Positions 7,196 to 35,000 of a stretch of 64,000 nucleotides of DNA are shown piece after piece. The notes beneath the pieces were generated by a model. The model did no database searches. It saw only the letters and a program-made list of their open reading frames with translations, and was not told the DNA's origin. Each line of letters begins with the position of its first letter. The stretch's first letter is position 1. The DNA is from Paracyclopina nana (lineage: Eukaryota; Arthropoda; Copepoda; Cyclopoida; Cyclopettidae): positions 11,482,501-11,546,500 of the forward strand of contig JAGUCH010000002.1 in assembly GCA_019096065.1 (NCBI GenBank), in the 5' to 3' direction. The translations under genes were made by a program, and so were the position numbers.

Positions 7196-8637
<1,442 letters not shown>

Positions 8638-8789
8638 TTGGAGTAATCAATAGTTCAATTTGTGATAATCTTTGCAGGCGATACGTTTTGACGGTTACTT
8701 GTGATTTGTAGTTTTGTTTTTCAGAATTATGCAAATACATGGTTGTTGTATAGTAGTTGTAGTATTGTAACAATAATCATTGTTCATGA

Positions 8790-11700
8790 TTAACGAACAT
8801 TTCTTGAGCCCTCAGCAATGCGGGATTTGTTGCCCTTATTGCGATCTTTGCCACCTCGTCGGGAGTCTCCCCCATTTCGCCGAGAATTGGAGTATCGTCG
8901 GTCATTCGGCAACGGTGGCCTTCCTCCGCCAGCAGATCGGCCTTCACCTCGGCCATAGTCTCTACCAGCATTGGCACCTGGACCAGACGCAGATGCAGCA
9001 CCTACAGAAGATGGAGACCAGCCGCGGCCTCCTCCTGAATTGGACACACTTGAGGAGCCTCCGTGCCTCTCACGATTGTTAAAGCTGGTTCTTCCATTAC
9101 CGTTGCTGCCACCGCTATTGCCCCGATATCCTTTGGCCCCGGCATTGGCACGCTCGGAGCGGCCTTTGGAAATGCTGCCCAGATTGGAGTTGGACACATT
9201 GGCCGACGAGTTTGACTTGTCAAAAACAGGCTCTTTGGTCGCCTCGCGATATCCAACAATTGAGCCTTTGCTTTTGGCCTCCTTCTCAGCAAAGAGTTCT
9301 TGGGCAGCTTTCAAGGATTGTTTGTTGTAGCCCGTAGGCCCTGTGGGCTGCTGGCCACGTGACTGGAGCACAAGAAAGTCGTCCACGTGTAGTGAAGGCG
9401 GCCTGGAAGTGTTTGGTGGCCTTGATCTGAACAAGTCAGGGCGCTGCCCACCTGGACCACGATTGAAGACAGATCGCGAGCCCCGAATGGCCACGTTGCC
9501 ACCTGCTTTAAAGCTGGAAATCAGGCTCTTGTTGGCCAACACCTTGGCCTCTAAAAGGGACTTTTTCACCGCTTTCTTCTTCAGCTGGCGCTCCCTCTCA
9601 AGAGACTTCTCGTCGCACACTTGCTTCACCTGCAGTTGAATGTCAAAGTCATCAGGCAAGTACGTCTCAACGAGTCCCAAAAGGTCCTCCTCAGATTCAA
9701 CTGCGTCCTCAGCCTGCTCTATTGGAGCGTCAGAATCGTCAAAGTAGGCCGCGGCCTTTCTTTTGGCAAACTGCTCCAGCAAAGGCTCAGCTGAGGGCCA
9801 ATCAAAGTCCAGCTCCTCAAGTCGAATAGAGGGGGGATCTCGTTGCACGAAGGCGACCAGCTTCTTGACAACCGAACTCTGACCAAGATCGTCACTGTAC
9901 AAGTAGTGCTCAGTGTCCCCGCTGTTGTTGCCAGTCCAGTCGAGCAGCTCGCGCAGGTCTTCAATCCCTATGAACTTGCTCAATGCCAGCAAAGACTCGC
10001 CCATCAGAGTCATCTCGTCCACGTCCATCTCCTTGAGGATTTTGGCCACTTCACTTTTGTTGTGGAGAAAACAGGTCCTTATCACAGACAACCCACACAA
10101 GTGCTTGGAAAGGCCGTTTATCGTCCGTGCAAGGGTCAAGTGGGGCTTGCCACTGCTATTGCAGCAGTGCGCTATCAACGTGTTAACCAGGAAATGGCAG
10201 CTCTCTTTGTCCGGCAAAGCATTCGATATGCTCTGTAAGTCACTCGAGTCTGGCGAGAGGCTCACTCTTAAGTCTGTCAGGGACTGAGCCACATTTGCAA
10301 CAACCTCAGCTGGCAGCGTTTTGACCAGATCCGAGTACTTGTCTCCCCTCATCAGGCTCAAGAAGGCAGCCCTTAAGGAGGGGAGCTTCAACAAAATGCT
10401 GGCAAATTTGGAGCTTTTCTCAGGCTCAGCTTTGAGCGCGTCTGCCACAGCTTCAGCCACTATGGCAGCAATTGGAGCAGACAAGTCAGACAACTGCTGG
10501 CAAACGCGACGTAGCCACTTCTGTACCAGACTCACTCTGCATGGTATCAGCAGTGTCACCATTTCTTTGAGTAAGCCTTCCATGCCATAAAGTTGGGCAC
10601 TCCATAAATTGCGCTGAGCCTCCGTTGTTGTCGTATTTTTGAAGGGCAATGGCAGGATCTGGCTCAATATTTTGAGTCCTGGCAAGTAGGTATGAGGAGA
10701 TGTGAGCACATACTTCAAAACGTCTTGAATCATGAGCTGCCACGTGGTGGTTTTACCCAGGCTCATGTCCACTGACACACTGGTGAAGCACATCAAAAAC
10801 TCAACAATGTCAGCGCATATCTCCAGACTGCTGGCGTAGCAGGCGGAATTTGTTGAGACAACTGTGCATAGAGCGAAAGTCTTCAGCATAGTCTGAATGG
10901 CAGTCGTGTCCCTGAATCCATCATCAAGACATAGAATGATGTGGCTCGCGATGAGCTTGAGAATTTGCACAATGGGTCGAATGGTGGCCACCAACAAATG
11001 GCCGTTGTATCCGGCAAACGTGGCAGTGTGTAGATGAGGCTGTTCATGATATCCACAGACTTTGGTCAAAATGGCCACGCCAAACTCACACAAGTCGTTG
11101 GAAAAGGCGCTGATTAGATTGCTTGGATCTGAGCCTTGGCCGCATAGTAGCTTGTGGAGAAATCTGATGGACATGACCAGCTCACAGCTGAGCGGGCTGA
11201 TGTTCTCCAAGTTTTTCTTCACAGACTCACAGAAGAATTCCATGGCCGACGGTTGGACCTATTAAAGCATTTAAAATGAGTAATATGTACATACAACGGA
11301 GTTAATGCAAACCTTTGCATCGGAGGTCCAAATTGTCGGAGTGCGCCCATCCAAAAAGTTGAGCCAGGATATCAACTCGAACAGCTTCGACGTCTCATCA
11401 CTCTTCCCTATAGCCAAAAGTTCCTCGGTGAAGAACTTTAAATATTCCACTTCATCTGATGTCCGCACCACCAAGAGCAACAGCTCACATGCGTAGCCTC
11501 TTATGGCTGACTTTTTCATATCCTTCTTGAGCACTGGTTCCTCTTCGGAACTCGGCGACTCTTTCTTCACGCCTGCATCATCGCTCGAATGCTTCACAAG
11601 TCGAACAATGGGCTTCAAAAATTCATTCAACGAAAGCACGTGAACTAAAGCAGTCCTGCCCATGGTTGAAAAGGTCATCCCATAGAGCTCCTGGAGCGAC

Positions 11701-16446: not shown

Positions 16447-17307
16447 CTACGCTTGACCCTCGTCCAATTTTGACTGCTTGGCTCGCACTCTCTGAATGAA
16501 TCTGTGCAAGCTTTTGTCATCTTTGACACCAACGTTGACCCTCGATCCCATGAGCATTTCTGCGCTGGACAAAATTTCAGAAGTCTTCATTTTAGGATGG
16601 TTCAATGCGATTGTCCTCAACCTTTCCCTGAACAAGATTCCATTCACAGTCACTTGATCAGGTGCATGATTGTGCTCGGTGACAGAGTCCAAGAGGACAC
16701 AAAGGCCGTCCATGGTGGTGGCAATTTGGCCTTTGCACAAGTTGTCCTTTTTGTGGTGTTTCACACACCTCCATTTGAAAATGCCGCCATGCTCATCCAC
16801 CATCGAAGGAGTGTACACTTTTTTCCTGTAGACATGGCCATTATAGATGAGTTGGTCTTCTCCTCGCTGAGTAGTGGAAATGGTGAGATTTGAGTCGACC
16901 TTGCCTGATGCCAAGTAAGGAGCAAGTAGAGCAGGATTATTGACACTCTGCCAGAAATCCGAATTGGCAGGTACTTCTTCATCATCTAAATGCATTCTTT
17001 TAGCTTTAGACGCGTTTTCTTCCTCATCACAGCTATCATGAACTAAATGAGCCAAGTCATACTTGTCGTCCTCCTTTTGTTCAGATTTGGCTTTTAGCAG
17101 AGAATTGACCGAATTAAGCTTGAACTCTAATTCGTCCGCTTCCTCTATGAGCGACAAGCATTCAGAGCAAACTGAGCCAGTCAAAAATTCCTCCTTGAGA
17201 CTCGAGTAAAGCCTGAAAGCAATTCGGGTTTGTGAATAACTTGTCCTCTGATTCACCGAAGTCCCCTCAAGGATTCCATCACGGCCACAAACGACGCAAG
17301 ATTTCAT
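16447..17307 (-). CDS. ZAD plus FLYWCH zinc-finger protein
   Basis: A single exon of 286 residues from the ATG at 17307 (MKSCVVCGRDG). An N-terminal CVVC and a later CSEC, about 50 residues apart and followed by a helix rich in Leu/Glu, make an arthropod ZAD dimerisation domain (about 3-85). Centrally, a FLYWCH-type zinc finger (about 155-220) shows LIYNGHVYRKK, FKWRC, a Cys-Lys-Gly step and HNH. The Lys-rich C-terminus has no C2H2 array, unlike most ZAD proteins. FLYWCH fingers are also common in transposon-derived proteins, so partial domestication is possible. The product is probably DNA-binding and nuclear. It lies in a tight minus-strand series with ZGPAT downstream. Confidence 0.8.
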   Translation of the reverse strand: MKSCVVCGRDGILEGTSVNQRTSYSQTRIAFRLYSSLKEEFLTGSVCSECLSLIEEADELEFKLNSVNSLLKAKSEQKEDDKYDLAHLVHDSCDEEENASKAKRMHLDDEEVPANSDFWQSVNNPALLAPYLASGKVDSNLTISTTQRGEDQLIYNGHVYRKKVYTPSMVDEHGGIFKWRCVKHHKKDNLCKGQIATTMDGLCVLLDSVTEHNHAPDQVTVNGILFRERLRTIALNHPKMKTSEILSSAEMLMGSRVNVGVKDDKSLHRFIQRVRAKQSKLDEGQA

Positions 17308-18146
17308 CGCTACACTTGTGTTTTTTGCCTCTCTCACTTTTTTCAGTTTTCACAATTTTGAGAACTTCAGCTGATCAACAACAACAGAGAGGCATGTATA
17401 GCCAACTACGCTGATGCCAACTGGGAGCGCACTTTTCATAACTTCAAATAATTTTTTCAGCCCGAAACTATGCGAAAAATATGAACTTACGTTAGTTTTA
17501 TTAGTACCTTCACATGATTTCTGAATTTCTGAATATATTTTGGCTACATCTAAAATAATTACACCCATTCCAGTACGGTGGTCACAAGCCTAACTCAGAT
17601 GAATTCGACCACCCCCCAACATGCATATTTTTTGATAGGCATTTCGTTGGGCTTCATCACTAGTGCACTGCATAAGACTTTTAAAAACTACTACCGCTTC
17701 GCAATCTCATTTTTCAAGGGAAAAGTACTAAATAGACCCGCCCTAAAATTTGAAAATGCAGAAAAAGTTATTTCAATGACACTCAGCAAGAATCCTTTGT
17801 TCATGAGTTATCTGCTCATTTTTATGCTCAATTGATGTCATCACTCTAATACACTTATTGCTACATTTCGTAGCATCTTACACATTGCATAAAGGGAATT
17901 TATGCCTGAAAATGGCTTGCTCCTCAGTGTTTTCAATTTTAAAGGGTGTCGCAGAAATAATACTTCTCAAAATAACCAACGGTTTAGGCAGTAGCTTTTT
18001 TCTAAAATATTATGTAGTGATGGGCGCCGAAAATTGATTTCACCATTTATATAGCCTTGAAGCAGGGTTGTAGAGGTTTCAAAAAATGTAAATTGTTGAG
18101 ATGGTCGAATACTTCTCGGTTAGGGCGGTGCAGTGGTTACCATCGT
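17308..18146. other. Intergenic region with two unconvincing small ORFs
   Basis: A minus-strand frame ending at 17350 contains a short hydrophobic segment (ALPVGISVVGYTCLSVVV). A plus-strand frame from ATG 17599 to 17835 encodes 78 residues with one probable membrane helix (AYFLIGISLGFITSAL), and the ATG follows a possible acceptor (ACTCAG). Neither is recognised and neither has a supporting partner exon. I leave both as possible micropeptides only. Confidence 0.3.
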
Positions 18147-19226: not shown

Positions 19227-19232
19227 TTTATT
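19227..19232 (-). terminator. Poly(A) signal of the WAP-CCP-Ig gene
   Basis: AATAAA on the minus strand about 40 nt after the stop codon at 19273. Confidence 0.5.
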
Positions 19233-19272: not shown

Positions 19273-22200
19273 TTAATTCAGAGGTTTTCCGCAAATTGGC
19301 ACACTTGAAGACCAGACACCATTATCAAGGCATTCGAGCATAGGAGCTCCATGCATGGTCAATCCTGGAGCACACTGGAATTTGACTGTTTCTTTGACTG
19401 GGTAGTAAAATCTCACATCTGACACCATCATACCACCAATCACGCTTCCAGGATATGTGCAAGCTTTAACACAAGTAGGAATCTCACCATTCCATTTGCC
19501 AAAATGAACGCCGTTGATAGTTGTCTCTCCACAAGTCATGACAGGCTGACCTTCCATCATAAATCCTGGATTGCAATGAAACTTGACAATCTTGCCAACT
19601 TTGAGAATTCCATCCATCTTTATTAGGCCATTTTCCGGTTCATCAGGCCTGAAAAGGAAGTTGTTTTATTGTGAAAGTAGTTGTCTTCAAAATATCGAAA
19701 TTTGACTTTTTCTAAAAAAGCGGACATATGGTGAAAACAAACAGAATCTCACGTTGGACAAATAACCGGTTTGCACGAGGGCAGCTGATCTTTGTCTGGG
19801 TTGACGTCAAGTAGAGCCACAGACCATTCGCCATTTTTCAAGCATTTGGCCTTAGGCACGCCCTCGAGGGTGTGGCCTCTTTGGCAAGAGAAGAAAGCAT
19901 GTCCTCCAGCACCAAAGCTGTACACTTGAACCCTCAAGTTTGGCCTCAAACTCGTTGCCAATTGTGTAATGTTGTTGGGGCAGACCACATCTTGGCATGC
20001 AGGTATAGGATGATCCCAATGACCAGTGGCCAAGCATTCCACATCAGCAGCTCCAATGAGAGCATTCCCATTGGTGCATTCAAAGTTGACCTTTTCACCA
20101 AGTTTTCCTTCTATCACTTTGGGTGTAGATTTGAGTCCCTCAGTCATTTCCACATCTGGGCATTTGACCTGGAATTAATAATCATTGAGCCACATAGTAG
20201 ATGGTTGGTAATAAATAAATGGAAGAAAGAGAAAAAATAGCTATATACTGGCTGAACATGTGGATTTATGGTGGCCTAGCCAAGCAGAGATTTATGATGG
20301 TGTTGTCGTGGTATGCTTGTGAAATACTTACATCCTTGACAATAATGGCAATGGCATGTTCTTGCTCCATAGGGGTGACACATGTGTAAGTTCCTGTGTC
20401 ATTCATCCTCGCATGATATATAGACAGTCGGTATTCCAAAGAAGAGTCCCTGCCCGGGGCACTCGTCCAACTCTGCAGATCAAATTAAAATTCAAGTTTA
20501 ATGAGCTTCTTCAAACCCTCGATCCTGCTTGATATTGCATGCCTACGATGATGGTACAAAATGAAAATCAACATTGGCCTTCTTTCGGATTTCAGGTGTT
20601 TAAACTATATGCAAATTTATGCTTCAAAGGAGAGTGAAAGCAGCAATTTCTGCCAGAAGGTGTTACTACACTCAACTCGCAAGATCCTCCTCGGTTCAAT
20701 CAAAATCTGCTTAACTGCCCCTTTTTCAGTCAGTATGCTAATTCTGAATCATAGTCACACATTTGCATACTTGAGCCATCAAGGATATGTGAATGCATTT
20801 TGAAGCAATCAAGAGCCCTTGCCCCAGTGCTGCCCTCTGGCGGGCAACTTTTTCCTAGCACACATTCATTCTCGATTGAAGGGAACGCTTGTCTTTTCGG
20901 GGGATAATTGATCGACACTTTGCCTTGATTGAGGGCAGCCATTAGCTATGTAGGCTTTGATTAAAAGTTGGCTCTTATGGTAGCAGCAATTTCGCCTCAG
21001 GCTCATTTTTCTGTAATGGCCCAGCTCTTATAGCAGCAGCGGGTTCGAAGGAGGGTTTTCTGATAAAATACTAGTTGTAAGGCTTTCTAAAGGGTTCTAC
21101 TATTGGATTATCGACATAAAGGCCACACATTCAAGCCTCAGACATGGCATAGTCCAAACAACAAAAAACCCACCCAGCCCAGACGGGTTTGCCAATAATT
21201 CCGCTCATATGGGTATCTAAGATCTATTACAGCAGATGAGAAAAATCCAAGAGGAGAAAACAAAGCAACAATATGTATATCTACAACAATGGTATCTATC
21301 CTAAGGCAGACTTCAATTGACAGGAGGATATTAATGAGATTTCTCTCGCCATAAATAACCTAACTTAACTGCAAGAATCTCGATTAAAATTTGGCCAAGC
21401 AAAAAACGACTATTCTACTGTAGTAGGGCATAAAAAGTTGCCATTTTAATTTCCGTTTGCCATAAAGGAAAAAGAATCATAATGCACTCGTGATGAGAAT
21501 ATTAAGAAATTGTGGCTCACCATAACAATATAGGATGAGACTCTAAAAGAGCAATATTGTGGGCCAATTTCAATGATTACCTGCGGGTAGGTTCTGCCGC
21601 TGTAGTTGTCAATGTACCACGTGGGATTGCCGTACTTTCTCCTGAACAAGCACTCCATATGCAAAATTGTTCCAGGGATCACCACCAATTCCCCTTGGTT
21701 GCTTTGTGCAATCGCCCCATTTTCGTGCCGAAAAAGAATCGTTGGTGGCTTCTTGGTGGAATAATCGTGATGTTGGCTCAGTCCGACGCAAATTGGATCC
21801 TCACCATCCCAAGATCCACCAACGCAGCGGCGACTTGACGAACCTTCTAAAACAAACTTGCCTGGAAGGGCGAAGAAAAACATCACCATTTCCATCTGGC
21901 AGATCACAATATGCTTAGCCTGTTTGCTCAATACATATCCAATATAGAAAACACTAGCCATCTCGCCACAGCAGTGAGAGGAGCTTTCTTACTCATCATC
22001 AGATGGCTTTTTAGCAGTTGCGTCACTCGGCACGAGACAGTTATAGCATAATAATAAGGGCAAATACTCAAGAAAATGACTGTACTGCTGCATCTCGAGA
22101 GCCCAGATGGGACATTAGGGGCCCATTTTTGATGAGGTTGCCATATACGTACTACTGCACTTTCATGAATAGTTAACCTCGATCTTTCCATATATACATA

Positions 22201-25200
22201 TTTACTACCCGAGGTCACTAAATTAATCATGAAGATTGCTCACCTATGTCTACACATCGGAATACGAGCTCATCTCCTGGCTCATAACGCTTCTCTACAC
22301 CTTCGGCCACTCCAAGGTCGTTGAAAAAGGCTGCCACATTTGTGTCAGGGTCAGGGCCAGAGTATGGGCAAGAGGCGTTGAAGTTGGAAGCTGAACTCAT
22401 CTCCTTGGGCTGGCCATTGGCATCACAGCCTAGTGAAAGTCCCACCCACCTGCCATTGTAGCAGACTATTTTCCAGGATCTTCCAGAGGGTGAGTCCTTA
22501 TTGGCTGACCCCTTGACACAGTCAAACCTGACCTCAGTCCCATGGGGCAAAGTGAGCCCTGGATCATTCAAGGGCTCCCTGGAATTCCCCTTGTACGTGA
22601 TGGTGCCCTCAACATGCGTAGGTCTGGAGCAAGGTGCTCCATCTTCAGCATCTTCATCGGAGTCATCCATGATATCCTCACTGATCACACTCATCTTGGA
22701 CAGCCGGTCATTCTTGGCACTCAAGTCTGGCAGCTGAGCAGACTTCAAGTCCATGTTACCATTTTTGACCACATGTGAGCTGGCCGAGATCTCAAGGTTG
22801 CCTAACCAGTCTTGACTGGTGCCATGGGCCAGTATTCCACAATGTGGAGTGGTAGGGATCAGAAGGCCTAACTTGCATTGCAAAGGCTTGTCATTTGGCT
22901 CCACTTGTCCTGGACACTTGAAATTGATGAGAGCATCATGAGGAATCACCTGCCCTGCTCTGTAATTGCCACCTGTCCCGAGGTATTCTCCACCCTCTGT
23001 TCCTGTAACCCAAGTATCCAAGAGGCAATTTTGAAAATAGAAACACTTCATTACCTGTGATTTCGGGCAAGACACAAGGATTGCCCACACATTTAGGCAT
23101 CCCAAAAATGGCGCTCGAGCCCCCAGACCAATCTCCATACCAACACCTCAACCGGTTAGGCCCATTCAGGAAATGACCATCATGGCAAACTACATCAATG
23201 TCACTGCCATGATCAATTGGAGCATGATAAGGCAGCCTTTTGCCCCCTTGATCAATGAAATGGCCTCCTGGGGGGACCCTTGGCAACTCACATCCTATGG
23301 GTGTACACTTGGGCAACTCTGGTTTCCAATCTCCACCTCGCTTGCACTTGATCTTCTTTTTGGCCAGGTTCAGCTCATATCCGGACTTGCAAGCCACCTT
23401 CAAAATGGTGCCCCTTGAGAACTCGTTGCTGTAGGCTTGCTGCTGACTGCCTTGCTTGAGCACCTCAAACTCAATGTTTTCATCAATGATGGGTGGACAA
23501 TAATCCTTGCCACCATTAGGATCTTGATCAAGGTCTTTGGATCGGCGATGTCGAGTATTGGCCGAACCTAAAAGAATTGATCAGCATCACTTTTTGGTGG
23601 CAAGGACTTTAAGTACTTTATTCAATGATTCACAAAATACAATGCTTACAATTGTACTAAAACTTCTGGTGGTTGCAACTCAGCCTAAAGATCATCCAAA
23701 TAATCCTATATATAAGTTGTCTGAGGAGTAAGTATAACTATCTCAATTTTGTGATGTCTAGTTGTCATGTGTCTCAGTATCCTATGATGTGAGGGTAGCG
23801 CCTGATTTAGATGTATGATGCTAAATCAGTGCTTTATGCTCTTGTGGTGATGACTCAGATGCATTGATGTCTTGACAGTAAGATTTCTCTGCTGCCGGCT
23901 TGAGACATCTAAATTTAAAGATGTCTCAACTTAAAGATATCTCAGCTTAAAGATATCTCAGCTTAGACGAGTCTCAGCTTAAGTCTTAGCTTAAATACGA
24001 CTCAGCTAAGTCTCAGCTTTAAAGCATATCAGTTTAAGTCTCAGTTTAAGTCTCATTTTAAGTCTCATTTTAAGTCTCATTTTAAGTCTCATTTTAAGTC
24101 TCATTTTAAGTCTCATTTTAAGTCTCATTTTAAGTCTCATTTTAAGTCTCATTTTAAGTCTCATTTTAAGTCTCATTTTAAGTCTCATTTTAAGTCTCAT
24201 TTTAAGTCTCATTTTAAGTCTCATTTTAAGTCTCATTTTAAGTCTCATTTTAAGTCTCATTTTAAGTCTCATTTTAAGTCTCATTTTAAGTCTCATTTTA
24301 AGTCTCATTTTAAGTCTCATTTTAAGTCTCATTTTAAGTCTCATTTTAAGTCTCATTTTAAGTCTCATTTTAAGTCTCATTTTAAGTCTCATTTTAAGTC
24401 TCATTTTAAGTCTCATTTTAAGTCTCATTTTAAGTCTCATTTTAAGTCTCATTTTAAGTCTCATTTTAAGTCTCAGCTTAAGTCTCAGCTTAAGTCTCAG
24501 CTTAAGTCTCAGCTTAAGTCTCAGCTTAAGTCTCAGCTTAAGTCTCAGCTTAAGTCTCAGCTTAAGTCTCAGCTTAAGTCTCAGCTTAAGTCTCAGCTTA
24601 AGTCTCAGCTTAAGTCTCAGCTTAAGTCTCAGCTTAAGTCTCAGCTTAAGTCTCAGCTTAAGTCTCAGCTTAAGTCTCAGCTTAAGTCTCAGCTTAAGTC
24701 TCAGCTTAAGTCTCAGCTTAAGTCTCAGCTTAAGTCTCATTTTAAGTCTCAGCTTAAGTCTCAGCTTAAGTCTCAGCTTAAGTCTCAGCTTAAGTCTCAG
24801 CTTAAGTCTCAGCTTTAAAAGTCTCAGCTTAAATGCATATCAGCTTAAGTCTCAGCTTAAATGCATATCAGCTTAAGTCTCAGGTTAAGTATCAGCTCAA
24901 GACTCAGCTCAAGTCTCAGCTTAAGTCTCAGCTCAAGTCTCAGCTTAGAGATGTCTCAACTAAGATAAGTCACTACCTATAGGTGTCCCAACTAATAAAG
25001 AAATGGCTCAGCAATAAGATGCCTCACTTAAGATACCTATCAGCTCAGAGATGTTTTAACTAAGATATGTCTCAGTAATGAGATTGCTCAAATTAGATAA
25101 GTCACATCACGAGATGTCTTAGCTTTCTTTCCATGAATTGTGTCATAATTAGGAATTAAGAATCTTTTTGCAACAGCCATCTCATACCTGAGCTGCTTCT

Positions 25201-28200
25201 GTCTCATAAGTCTCAGTCTTTATGCTCTAACAATGAAGTGAGTTTGAAAAGTGGCTGCTTAGAGTTAGTTTAGCACTAGGGCAGTATCTTGCAAGTTTAC
25301 ATGAATGTGCGAGAATTACCATGGTAATTGTCAGCAACTGAGTCTCTTCTCTGTCGCCTTCTCAAAGACCGTTTGGCTCTTTTCGGTATTAGAATGGCCT
25401 TTCCATCCCCATAATTGGGAGCAGATCGCTTTGATAGCCATTCCATTTTGGGGTGGTATTCAAGCTCGCATTTGGGAAGAGTAGCAGGGCTCCATCTATG
25501 GATGGTTGAGTGAAAGTGAGATTAATGACCTAATTTTGGGTTTCCTGTAATGAAAGCTGTTCACTTACCTGCCGTCGATACAAGTTGCACCTGGGGGTCC
25601 TTCAACCAATTTGGTGCCTCTGCCACACTCAAACATGATTTGTCTGTTATTTTTCACCTTTTTCACATAGGGTCTGTAATCATACAGGCCCATATTGCCA
25701 ACAAGCAAAACCTATGGGGAATTTGATAGCATGTTCCATTAAGAAAGCACGTAAATGCGTATTGTACTGCATGCATTATTCCTCACCTTTCCCCCGTCAA
25801 TGTAGCCGGGAAATGGGCAGTAGATGAGCTCACACGAAGGTGTTTCGCCAGTCCAGTTACCAAAGTCGCAGGTTGTCGTATTTTGCCCCTTGAGCACAAA
25901 TCCATCTTTGCACTGATACAGCCCGATGCCTCCGTGGCGAGTATTAGGGACCTTAGATATAGTAGATTTATAGAGAATGTAAACTATGCAAATTACAGAC
26001 AATAAATTCAGCGTTACGCATAAGTTGGCTCTACCATAAAGTAGCTGTGAACGAAAGTTTGCTCATTTCTTGCATAAAAGAAGGTTGAGTGCATCTTATT
26101 TGCAAGAGCTTTCTTTTATGTAGTATAGTATATGGTGGTAAAAGTAATGTTTTCACGTTGTCATAGTTTCTGCACAGACAATATGAGAAAAAGTGAAAGC
26201 AGTTACACTTTTATAGCCTAGAAGCTAAAATCTCACAAAATGAGACTGGGGGAGTTGCAAATCCAAGAAAATCTCGGCTGCTCATCTTGCCTGCCAAATA
26301 ATTGGAAGCCGACCTTCGTATTTTTCTCATAAGCTGCACATATTTTCGTGGCCTCGGAGATTAGATCAGGTCCCAAGGGATCCATCGCTCATTGTTGCAA
26401 ATGAGGTCAAATATATATACTACCACAGCACATTTCCGTCTAATTGTACAGCCATTAAAGGACGCGAGGAGAAAAAATGAAAGTTTTCCCCTCTATCAGT
26501 TTGTCACAAGTGAGCATGTCAAAACTAGCCAATAATCCACTGCAAACATTACTCCACTTACCAAAAGTGCAAGAGTACGTGTGTGCGCAAATAATTGCTT
26601 CTCAACAGTTAACTAGTTTTATCATGGCCATAGGTGATAAAGTGAGCAGGGGAAAAATTATGTTGCTTACCACAACCATGCCATCGTTAGGTGGGCTGGG
26701 CAAGGTTTTGCACCTGGCTGGCTCACATCTGGGCATTCGATCAAAAGTGCCATTATTGCATGTGATTTGCGTGACATTGCCCTCCAACTCATAGTTGGCC
26801 ATGCATTCCACGGTGATGTTGCTGCCATGCATCACCGTGTTCATGTAGGCGGTCAAGTTGACCACACGTCCCATGGGTACATCAGGGACCAAGCAAGGTG
26901 CCAAGCATTTGGGCAGAGGATGAGACCACGTGCCATCCACCTGAAACATGCTTTTACATTTGCATACATTAGCAAGTCTATTTCAAAGCGTTTTTAACCT
27001 GACAAGTTGTGCTCACGCTGCCACCCTCAAACTTCATTCCGTCCACGCACTTGAAATTGACCACATCCCCAAGGTTCATCCTGGATCCCTCCAACCAGCC
27101 ATTGGGCAGGAATCCTGGCGACCCACAGTTGATTTCCTTGCATTTCGGCTCATCTCCAGTCCAATTTTTGTCCTCGCCACAAGTCCTGGAGGAGTCTCCC
27201 ACCACCATGAAGCCATATTTGCAGTTGTAAGTGACGACTGACTTGTAAGCAAGTGCTGTGTAATGTGCTTTGCCATTGTCTGGGGACTCTGGAAGACCGC
27301 ATTGAACTGGAACACAAGTTGGTAATTCAGATGGAGTCCAAGTTCCATCACTTTGACAGTAACGAGTGTCCTTGCCCACAAGTTCAAAGCCTGGCACACA
27401 TTCGTACTTGATCTGCAAAGCAAGCAAAGAGCAACTTTTTTTGTGTTCAGGCTCACCAAAACGACATCTTCAGATGCATTTACTTAGCTTGCAAGGAAAG
27501 CATTGCACCTTTTTTATGCCTTGATAGCGCGCTTTTACTTGCCTAACTTTTTGACCTGATCTCTAATGAGACTCCTGGGTATTTTGACACCAACCAAAAA
27601 GTTAGCTTAGGATCACCAAACTTGTGTGGTGGCCATGCATGTCCACCCCACGGAAACTTTTTTCAAGGAATTTCCCAAGAAAAACTCGCATAGCTTGACC
27701 CTATGCTTCCTATGCATTATGGTGCAGAATAGGTAGTTATATCGGGATTCTCCTCTCTGTGTGCGAGTCCTGCTCATCCTTTTAGCTTTTAATGAAGAAA
27801 ATTCCCTCACGTAGAGTCCTGCTGTCATTTACTAGGTTAGGCACCACAATGAAATTAAGCAAGCCAAGTAATTCTGATTAATTTCACCCTTGAAGGAGAA
27901 GAATTGTTTTGTGTAGGAGAAGTAACAACAACAGGCTCACAAAAGTTGTTGTTGGTTTAAAAGGGAATTTTTCATATTGTTCAAAGGGGAAATAGCTTTA
28001 TATGCCATAGCCCTTTCACTCTTTTGTGCGTCCCTGATGATGTCAGAAATTCTCCATTCTAAGAGGGAGAAGCAGCCTATTGTTCACACACAACCAGATC
28101 ATGCATAACAAAAGAAAGAACTCAATATAGGACAGACAAATTTGGAGCAAGACCAAAAAGGCCTGCTGAATTTTTTAAGCTAGCCTACTGAAGAAAGCCA

Positions 28201-30220
28201 AACAGCCAAAGGCCATCATCATCATGAGGCCATGAAAACGTCAAAAGTTGTGAGATTTTATTGTTGGACAGTTCCGACAACGCTTTTCTTTTATGCTGAG
28301 TAATTTCTGCTTTCTAACTGATGTAAGGAAAAGAGGAAAAAACTTCGCCTTGGTGGCAAGGATTTTTTTTCGAGTAAGCTAGTTAAAAGGTGATAATTAC
28401 CGAGATAGCCAGGCTTTTTAGTGAGCCACTGCAACACCTTTCCAAAACCACAATTAACTACACATGACGTAGTCGGCCGTAACAAAAACATCCAGATCTA
28501 TAGATCTTTCTTTCCACTTTTCAGCAGGATTTAGCGTGATTCGTTGCGGACTTGTCACCTGCGCATGCACGCTACAAAATGTAAACAAACTTGCGAGGCA
28601 GCAAATTCTTAGAAGAATGGCGCTGCTCAGCAGCTGCCAAGTACTCAGTAGCCAGCACTCACACTGAGGTGAGTGGCGACTCAGTATTCAGCTTTCAATT
28701 TTCAATTGACACTGTGTTGCGGCGACTTCACAAAAAAGGCCATTTCGCTACCAAAAAAGCCAAAAGAGTTAATGGAGAGACTTACAATTGACTGATAACG
28801 CTGTCCCTACCAGTTCTCGTCTACGGCCCTGTTCTCGTCGACTTTTCGAGCTGGTTGAGCAGACTCAATAATTACCTGGCATCGGTAAGTTGTGCAATCC
28901 CCTGTTCGTTTTCCATTGAGTATTTCCTCGGGTGGGCCGCAATCAATTGGGTGACAGGTTAAGTCAGGCCCAAACCATCGAGCTGTGCCATTGTAGAAAA
29001 AGCATTGTGCCACTTGAAAGCCTTTTCTTTTGTAGCCTGGGTCGCACTGGTACGACAGCTCTGTATCCAGATCGAAGAACATCTGAAAAAGAACAATGGG
29101 CGCAAAGATCTTGATTAGAGCCGTGATCAAGATCTTCCCAAGGGTTGAAGGCCAAGCTAGCTTGTATGGTAAGAATCTTTTTTGTTAGAACATCATCAGC
29201 AGCATTTCCTCAAGCAAATGTGTAACTTTCCATCTCCCTTAATCTTGATGCTACACGGGCTGTGCAATAAATTAGCTGAACGTGGTTGTCAAAAAGAAAG
29301 CCCATGCACATTACACATAGAGGCTATTATCTAACTGACATGTTCATTAGGTTCATTATCCAGCCTACCAACTAATTAAAATGTTAATCACGCCATGAAA
29401 AATTGCCCAACTATGTATATGTAGCATTTTACCTGCTCAGATGATCCATTGTGTTTGGCATGGGGTATGATTGTGGGTGTGCCACAATAGTACCTTGATT
29501 GGGCACTACTTGTGCCCTGTTTGCAGGAAGGCTGAGCCCCTGACCAGTGGCCATTCGAGTTGCATATCACTTGCTCCAGCCCAACAATCTGATAGCCATC
29601 ATCACAAGTGTAGACAGCCCTGTCATTGAAATGCCTCCCAGTCAAATGAACCTGAAACATGCCCCATAATAGCAAGGAATATTTCTGGCATTGTTGCTGC
29701 TGCGAAACATACTTGACCATGTGGTGGATCAGGCAGCTCTGGGCATTCCTTTTCGGGCCTGATGCAAGACATTCCACAGGCGCCATCGCAAAGGCAAAGT
29801 TTCCTGTCATTGAGGCAGTCGCTGTCAGTGGCACATTTTCTCGGGCATGTCCTCTTTTTGCCATTTTTTCCATCCCTTACAGTGTCAGTTTGCCTTGGGG
29901 GACATTCATCAGGCTTGACATAGCCCAAAGAAGTTGCTGATCTCAGGTCTCGATAATGATCATCTTCTGGTTGCAGAGGCACACAAAAAACGAGAGATTT
30001 TTTTCTCCCCTTCTCCTCTTTGTATTTCAAATTTAAGCTTACCGTTGCTTTCTTCACTCCTGAATTGCAAGGCATGTCTGTTTTGGTGCAAAAGCAGCCT
30101 TTGCAGCCTTTTAACCTTCCTCGGGTGTCCTTCAAAGCCTGCTTCATGGTTATTATGAGATGAGGCAAATCCAAAGAGAATGAGCATGAAAAAGAAGGCC
30201 ACAACTTCTTTGGCCTTCAT
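19273..30220 (-). CDS. Giant secreted WAP/CCP/Ig protein of the Hikaru genki/Hasp family
   Basis: Fifteen exons join in continuous phase: 30043..30220, 29713..29966, 29433..29651, 28876..29082, 26999..27412, 26671..26940, 25787..25951, 25569..25711, 25320..25495, 23055..23567, 22244..23002, 21581..21861, 20332..20472, 19753..20168 and 19273..19648. They encode about 1503 residues. Order: signal peptide (MKAKEVVAFFFMLILFGFASS); a WAP-like Cys core (about 80-128); eight CCP/sushi domains; a basic linker with furin-type sites (KRAKR, RRRQRR, about 645-690); CCP9-11; an acidic linker; CCP12-13; one Ig domain (about 1118-1240, ILFRHENG to DTGTYTCVTP); CCP14-17. Drosophila Hig (Ig plus CCP) and its scaffold Hasp are matrix proteins of cholinergic synaptic clefts; the C-terminal half is Hig-like. 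I do not assign a symbol because both halves lie in one gene. Intron 9 holds a 12-bp satellite. Confidence 0.85.
24031..24815. repeat. 12-bp tandem satellite in an intron of the WAP-CCP-Ig gene
   Basis: About 65 head-to-tail copies of a 12-mer. About 35 copies of AGTCTCATTTTA (from about 24053) switch abruptly near 24474 to about 28 copies of AGTCTCAGCTTA, with a single reversion near 24739. Degenerate copies of GTCTCAG extend from about 23870 to 25260. Because 12 is a multiple of 3 the array is open on the minus strand, but it lies inside a 1.75-kb intron (23568..25319). Confidence 0.95.
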
Positions 30221-32049: not shown

Positions 32050-35000
32050 TCAGTTCCTTCTTTTCCTGATGCACCAACGGCACGTCAGGAAATAAATGAG
32101 TTCGATTCCACTGACCAAGCTGAATCCCAGGCAAAGTCCAAGACAGCCTCCAATATTGGCTTTATATGGGAGAGAGAGTTAAGTAAAAGTGGCCATTAGA
32201 TTGAGTGGAATGCTTACAAATGATGTCCTCAGGTGCATAGAGCTGATCCCTTTTAAGTTTCACTATGGAGCTTTCCTGGAAGAAAACCCTCACCAGCGAC
32301 TCCCCTTGCGAAGTGCTCGATTCAGACAGCTTTGAAGCCAGAGGTACAGAGGACATTGATGCCGAATAAACTGTCTCAGAACAGGCTGGTGGGCATATTT
32401 TGCCCAAATCCACGTTCTCGTCATTGATGGCATCTGTCCAAGGGTCCATGATTAAATATTTATAAGCATTTTGTGTGATTTTCAGAGTTCTTACCAATGA
32501 CAGTACTATTACTGATACACTCAATGCCATAAGTGTCACAAATACCTGCAGTTCCTGAAAGTAATGCAAAGCTAAATCAAATTACGCGTTTCAGCCGCAA
32601 GATGGAGTTGCGGATTGTTTTGGGTGAAAAATGGGGACTGGACTTTGCTATTTTCACCAGTCACCCATAAAAACGCCAAAAAGCATTAATGGCGAAAATT
32701 CAACATCTGGCATTTTGTCTACTGCGATAGCGCCCTCCATAAAGGTAGTGAAAAAACGCCTGAACTAAATATCATGCTCTAAGCTTTGGTGGTTGATGTT
32801 CAGCGGAAAATTATATGTGTGAATCACACAACCTTGATAATTACCTGGTAAATAGTATGGTCGACATTTGCATTTGTCATCGAAGATGTCGATGACTCTC
32901 TCCAGCTCACAATTTGACCTGCTGTAAGTCAAGTAGTATTTTAGGCTTCTCTCATCTTGGAAATTGCATTTCCTAGTTTCATTTCCATATCTCCGAGTTT
33001 CTTCGGTGCTGCAAAAGAAAAAAGAAACTTTGTATGCAAGGCAAATTGAAAATGAATGGTCAGTATTATGTATTTGAGTAAATCCCCAGGGATCCATATG
33101 AATGATTTATACGCTCAGCTTGGCCATTCAATGGCTGCCCCATTTGGAATGTACTAATGTTACCAAGAAAAAAGCATAAAATATTTTTTTTCTTGCTTAA
33201 AATTGGCAAATATTGTACTTGTACATTTGTACGTAGTATTTCAGTATTTTCCAGGTTTTCAAGAACCGAGAAAAAGGGATTAGGAATGAATAGAATGGAA
33301 GAAAATTAAGAGTTCCTTAGAGGGAGAAAGTAATAGACATCGTACGCCTCAGTTAAAGTTGCAGTGACAGCGACAAAGTTTTCAGTCGTGGGTCCAATGG
33401 CCATTCCTTTTGTTCCAACTTCAGGAAATGCATTTGGATTGTGGATGTAAAACTGCGTAGCATGCGAGAAAATTTGCTGTTAGTAGCTCAACTCTAAAAA
33501 TACATAAGATCTTTTTGCTCCTATGACCAAATATTGTACCTTAGTTCCAACAAATGTGCCAGTTTTCAGCCACCCACACTGCAAACTATCCAGCCTGAAG
33601 GCCAATCCCAATTCACTTCCGGGCCCCTTGACCTTTTTGACTGTGGTGTCATCTGTATCAGGCTTTTTGGTTGTGGTGGTTGAAGAAGAGCCACTTCCTG
33701 TTGTCGATTTGGCTGTAGTGGTTGAAGTGGTTGTCCTACTTGAGCAATAGTTGGTCCACTCATTGGTGTCCAAGACTGTCTGGGGACAAGTTGAGCCGCC
33801 TGATGAGGAGGGGGTTTCTTCACCATAGTAGTCATTAGCATAGTCAGACGAGTCAAACTCAATAGCTGCAGTGGAACTGTCTCCAGACCTATTAATGTTG
33901 GTTATTCTACCATGGATGACTCAAAGTTTGTTGATGAATATTACCCAACATCTTGTAAATTGGCTTTAGCAGGGACAGCATTAAAAGAGCAACAAAATCC
34001 ATTATCAGTGGAGACAATTGTGAAGATCTTAGTGCAGCTGACTTTGATCCCATTCCAAGTGCAGTTTTTTATGTAGTCCTTACAAGTTGGTGTTACCTAA
34101 TTGGAAAAGAAACCACCTTGAAAAAAGTCATTTCAAGGCTAATGCATGCTACTTTTTTCATAGTTTTGATTATGTCCTCTGAGCTGAAATTGTAGTAGCC
34201 TATGTTAACGTCGAAAAACTCCTCCATGCCCAAAAAAGATCCCAAAGCTGCTTCCATAATTGATGAAACTGTGTCACCAGAACCACTCTTGATTTTCTCA
34301 TAGAATCTAAAAAAAGTTCCATAAATTATTCAAACTTATTAAAGCTGCATATGCCAATTGTCACTCGCTGTCCATATTCAAATGGGAATTTTTTTTAAAT
34401 TATTCATGATTTGTGGATCACAAATGACTGCATAAACTCTAGCATTTTTCAAACCCACATCACTTCCGGTTGGATCCAAACCACGTGGTCCAGTTTCAAT
34501 GATAAACAAAACTTATTTTTTAAAATTATAATTCGATTAGGTCCGATTCTTGGAAAATTGACACCATTAGTCATTTAGCTATAATTTGGGTGAGCATGCT
34601 GTGCATGCGATACTTACTTCATGTCACACACTGTGTTGGCCAGCTTGCTAGGTATGACTTTTGACACGGGACATATGGTCACCGCGGGAAAATCTATCTT
34701 GTTCAAGGCAAAATGGGACTCATCTATACTAGTTATGATTGGATTCGACTGCCAGTTCTTGATAATTCTCACCACAAGGTAAATACCAAATATGGCCATT
34801 CCGAGCACCACCAAACACCAGCAAAACCTTCGAGAAATTCCGTGGCATACCCAATTTTAGCAGAATGGGGAAATATTAATACTTTTCGATAGGATGGCTG
34901 CCATCCTCTGTTGTATATTTAGGGCCATGCAAGCTAGTTGATTCGTTGTACTCCTTCACCATCTCCCCGCATGATCTCTTTTTGTTCTTTTTCTCATCTG

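Follow-up and report, generated by a model that had tools for sequence, protein, structure and literature searches.

Gene structure and domain order

A gene was found on the minus strand between 30220 and 19273 of the window, which is the whole 64,000-nucleotide stretch of DNA analysed here (C2:11482501-11546500). Its coding region (19273..30220) consists of 15 exons separated by 14 introns, all 14 of which have canonical GT-AG ends, and it forms one open frame of 4512 nt including the stop codon, encoding 1503 aa. AATAAA/ATTAAA sites are located directly 3′ of the coding sequence, at 19232, 19212, and 19157. The order of the domains is signal peptide, WAP-like module, CCP1-13, Ig, and CCP14-17. 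An earlier note on this DNA had joined 15 exons in frame into a protein of this length with a signal peptide, a WAP-like module, 17 CCPs, and one Ig, and our analysis bears this out. All the coding parts of the gene described below lie on the minus strand. Two other open frames of the window are on the same strand: one at 32765-33106, which by its look we take to be a piece of a DEG/ENaC channel, and one at 16447-17349, which by its look is presumably a FLYWCH zinc-finger protein.

Exon 1 (30043..30220) carries the start codon and a hydrophobic signal peptide, the latter judged by eye. It is followed by a WAP-like four-disulfide module (aa 77-130, 29755..29916), in which eight cysteines were recognized by eye at the expected place. 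Its Pfam WAP scores were 16.4 and 17.3 bits with N-terminal pieces of the protein (17.3 bits for the module as placed here) and 19.0 bits in a genome search, all under the Pfam cut-off of 20.8, and the WAP was not listed in the Pfam scan of the whole protein. The WAP is the weakest part of the domain assignment. The four-cysteine pattern revealed 17 CCPs, of which CCP3 has six cysteines, while the whole-protein Pfam scan (E up to 1) gave 15 Sushi stretches with a protein E of 1.8e-107. The same scan gave one Ig_3 match (E 1.4e-5), whose 25.9 bits are under the curated cut-off of 30; this Ig is positioned at aa about 1156-1227 in exons 12-13 (20371..21694).

CCP1-8 (aa 134-626, 25468..29745) are encoded by exons 2-9 and make up the N-terminal module. 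They are separated by a basic linker from CCP9-11 (aa 699-901, 22839..23499), a bridging segment with no clear paralogue elsewhere: when CCP9-13 was used as a query against the genome, only weak matches were found beyond its own three exons, the best with E 0.003. Next comes a partly acidic linker (aa 902-970, 22632..22838), whose exon also encodes CCP12 completely and CCP11 for the most part. The Hig-type module begins with CCP12-13 (aa 971-1125, 21785..22631), contains the Ig, and ends with CCP14-17 (aa 1243-1503, 19276..20162), which were identified by Pfam, as were CCP1-8.

The exon at 22244-23002 encodes the larger share of CCP11, then the acidic linker and CCP12 in full, and finally the beginning of CCP13. 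It rules out a split of the gene at the place where the earlier note had tested for one, but the natural border between the modules lies elsewhere, at intron 9 (23568-25319). This intron separates CCP8 from CCP9, and no exon bridges the two CCPs. More than half of it is occupied by a minisatellite of about 80 copies of a 12-base unit (23970..24947), in which two successive unit types could be distinguished by eye.

Putative convertase sites

The basic linker between CCP8 and CCP9 (aa 656-687, 23533..25380) is encoded by the end of exon 9 and the start of exon 10. A motif count on the window protein revealed three R-x-[KR]-R convertase-like sites, all of them in this linker, whereas 0.37 would be expected in the shuffled whole protein. 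The basic sites fall on both sides of the exon 9/10 junction.

A paralogue of CCP1-8

Using WAP-CCP8 as a query against the genome (92 Mb, 10 contigs), we found 38 matches. The strongest set outside the window belonged to a gene, here called gene B, on the minus strand about 0.4 Mb from the window gene (C2:11105583-11109520; L015:4584-8521). Other CCP genes matched this query more weakly, and the next best, on C3, had 34% identity and E 1.4e-26. Gene B encodes a hydrophobic, type II-like membrane segment (judged by eye) and then eight CCPs (8 Pfam stretches). It has no WAP before CCP1, and its C-terminus is formed by KAKRS and a brief tail. The 5′ end of its model is incomplete, and the first exon may be two.

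The best BLASTP match joined window residues 130-633 to gene B residues 132-626, with 53% identity over 504 aligned positions (E 0). Domain-by-domain comparison with window CCP1-8 was in register for all eight CCPs. Both genes have the six-cysteine CCP3 and the same order of eight CCPs, and the recurrence of these features in gene B supports the exon joins of CCP1-8. None of the seven window introns in CCP1-8 lies within 6 nt of any gene B intron. It is possible that gene B encodes a membrane-bound relative of LEV-9/Hasp.

A separate Hig-type gene

The Ig query found four matches in the genome at E up to 10, namely the two Ig exons of the window gene and two exons of a distinct gene on contig C9, here called gene C. 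Gene C (C9:3042530-3051652, plus strand) has 9 exons and encodes 589 aa, in the order signal-like start, acidic linker, two CCPs, Ig, and four CCPs. Its CCPs number six by the cysteine pattern and five by Pfam (as Sushi stretches). The Ig was not listed by Pfam (E up to 1), despite its good alignment with the window Ig. Insect Hig has been published with five CCPs as well, together with one Ig (PMC9083331, PMC7180231, PMC4411065), and gene C is a gene of the Hig type. The search for the R-x-[KR]-R motif in gene C gave 0 sites. Intron 2 of gene C (L017 about 8450-9450) contains, as seen by eye, a short-repeat array around TTTTGCCCTTGGGGAC and then its reverse complement.

The C-terminal third of the window protein, described as Hig-like in the earlier note, indeed aligned with gene C. 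The best BLASTP match joined window aa 1024-1498 to gene C aa 136-584 with 29% identity and E 6e-70, and identity between the window C-terminal module and gene C amounts to 29-31%. Eight weaker BLASTP matches, with E from 1e-30 to 7e-7, join other window CCPs to gene C, as repeats would give. The comparison of Ig with Ig gave a z of 17.4. Domain by domain, four of the seven best matches for gene C were on the diagonal (its second CCP, the Ig, and the last two CCPs), and its first, third, and fourth CCPs scored best off the diagonal; window CCP13 and the second CCP of gene C are thus paired as best match, and window CCP12 and the first are not. Given these four diagonal matches out of seven and the eight weaker matches, much of the similarity outside the Ig would be general CCP likeness. 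When CCP3-6 of gene C were compared with the 14 runs of four consecutive window CCPs, CCP14-17 scored best (28.3, against 25.4 for the next run).

Four window introns lie in the Hig-type block. Two of these, one inside the Ig and one at the Ig end, are 1 and 2 nt from gene C introns, a coincidence with P 0.0028 under random placement, where the 2-nt limit was chosen after the distances were known. By sequence comparison, the CCP12-Ig-CCP17 part of the window gene and gene C are paralogues that go back to a single old module.

Wider searches and genome context

No relatives were found in genome_contigs with CCP1-8 or with the alignment of the window and gene C modules, nor in viral_contigs with the alignment of window and gene B CCP1-8. 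Among solved structures (PDB), 121 distinct sequences were matched by one module profile and 108 by the other. The 60 matches listed for each profile were proteins of complement and coagulation, selectins, and viral complement-control proteins, and Hig, Hasp, and LEV-9 were absent from these listed matches.

The repeat TTAGG fills three of the six contig-end stretches examined; a fourth has runs of 33 and 5 units, and one reads N. The contig end at C2:17537363-17543362 (L028) has a CCAGG-type repeat, not TTAGG. There were also 80 chitin-binding cuticle matches in the genome. The TTAGG contig ends and the cuticle matches together indicate an arthropod genome. Searches for insect odorant receptors (5 candidates scored) and for odorant-binding proteins (0 candidates) gave no match, and neither did their controls.

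Discussion

We take CG10186 to be Hasp. Tandem sushi domains have been described in CG10186 (PMC3927616), and Hasp has been reported to contain CCP domains (PMC8505678). According to a review, Hasp has a single WAP ahead of as many as 17 CCPs, Hig combines one Ig with five CCPs, and LEV-9, which is cleaved C-terminally, has eight CCPs besides its WAP (PMC9083331). Leafhopper Hig has been described as CCP1, IG, CCP2 (PMC7180231), of which CCP2, as its length suggests, would hold four CCPs.

The window gene fits Hasp in that its 17 CCPs (17 by the cysteine pattern, 15 Pfam stretches) correspond to the 17 that come after the one WAP of the review's Drosophila protein (PMC9083331), and its N-terminus carries a WAP-like module, albeit one under the Pfam cut-off. 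It differs, as compared by description, in having an Ig between CCP13 and CCP14, which the review's account of Hasp does not mention. The earlier note, which saw Hasp and Hig modules joined in one gene, would have given up that reading if Hig or Hasp of most arthropods already had the full architecture. The published description of Hasp comes near to this, with its WAP and as many as 17 CCPs, the Ig being the part that goes unmentioned (PMC9083331). The window gene resembles insect Hig in its C-terminal module, where a CCP, an Ig, and then further CCPs follow one another (PMC7180231), although here this module sits at the end of a longer protein. A Hig composition of five CCPs and one Ig without WAP is better matched by gene C than by the window gene. 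The N-terminal part is similar in composition to Hasp, as the earlier note had held, and to C. elegans LEV-9 (PMC9083331), having eight CCPs like the latter and, before them, the WAP-like module; LEV-9 is C-terminally cleaved, and the window protein has convertase-like sites after its eighth CCP. However, LEV-9 comprises a WAP and eight CCPs only, and the window gene model encodes an Ig and nine CCPs beyond these.

In our reading, the window gene probably encodes the precursor of an arthropod Hasp-type scaffold, whose C-terminal module is paralogous to gene C and which would be cut by a convertase between CCP8 and CCP9 and play a role in the synaptic cleft. Its orthology to Hasp is suggested by architecture only, the fly and worm proteins having been compared by their descriptions. 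Hasp, Hig, and LEV-9 have all been described as processed (PMC9083331), and this fits the three-site cluster between CCP8 and CCP9, from which we infer cleavage at this position. Cutting by a furin-type convertase in this cluster would yield two products, one LEV-9-like (the WAP-like module and CCP1-8) and the other Hig-like (CCP9-17 and the Ig). Both parts would remain in the cholinergic synaptic cleft, where they may hold diffusible Hig and in this way help to keep nicotinic receptors there. The secretion, cleavage, location, partner, and function of the window protein are predicted here by analogy with the fly and worm literature, the role in the cholinergic cleft being drawn from work on flies (PMC9083331, PMC8505678).

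The window gene is probably not a merger of Hasp and Hig. Each of its halves also stands alone in the genome, CCP1-8 as gene B and the Hig-type module as gene C, as would be expected if a gene B-like CCP1-8 protein had been fused with an extra Hig copy in this lineage and the resemblance to Hasp were convergent. The lack of an exon bridging CCP8 and CCP9 and the minisatellite in intron 9 also favour such a fusion. We regard it as unlikely, since the CCP number is the same as that given for fly Hasp (PMC9083331) and CCP9-11 have no clear separate source. The C-terminal module is, moreover, just 29-31% identical to gene C, so any joining was probably old. The earlier note had read the locus as an ancestral precursor that combined Hasp and Hig before their separation, which agrees with the Hig type of the C-terminal module. 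However, the Hig-type gene C, with its own signal-like start, is present in the same genome, so the idea that one precursor stands in for the pair is not supported, and the window gene need not be their unsplit ancestor; that reading seems to us extremely improbable.

It is also quite improbable that the locus consists of two neighbouring genes, a LEV-9-like one (exons 1-9) and a second one (exons 10-15). If exon 9 were read through into its intron, the frame would close seven codons on and leave just the WAP-like module and eight CCPs, and gene B stops after the same domain with its KAKRS tail. But canonical splice sites link exon 9 to exon 10 in frame, their junction is flanked by the basic sites, and the sole AATAAA/ATTAAA of intron 9, at 23622, adjoins exon 10. 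No start exon with a signal was found in intron 9 either: we scanned introns 9-11 for ATG frames of at least 15 residues with a hydrophobic start (9-residue mean >1.6) and a donor of matching phase, and obtained a single candidate, of 34 residues, in intron 11 and none in the other two. The window gene may also give a shorter version that stops soon after exon 9.

If the window gene is a Hasp-type scaffold gene, one could speculate that Hig is a duplicate of the C-terminal fragment released by a convertase from a long Hasp-type precursor, a partner made in cis having thus become a separate gene, and each half of such a precursor does occur on its own in this genome, as genes B and C; we offer this tentatively and consider it doubtful.

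Reading the window gene as a Hasp-type scaffold replaces the story of a fusion with a testable one, in which a homologous Ig/CCP module is common to proteins of the Hasp and Hig types. The Ig of such proteins may escape domain servers, as it is under the Pfam cut-off in the window gene and unlisted in gene C. A paper of 2015 stated that other arthropods had yielded no identified Hig homologue (PMC4411065). If this animal is not an insect, the separate Hig-type gene found here would extend that statement. A shared module would also give a simple reason for the anchoring of one protein by the other, like binding like.
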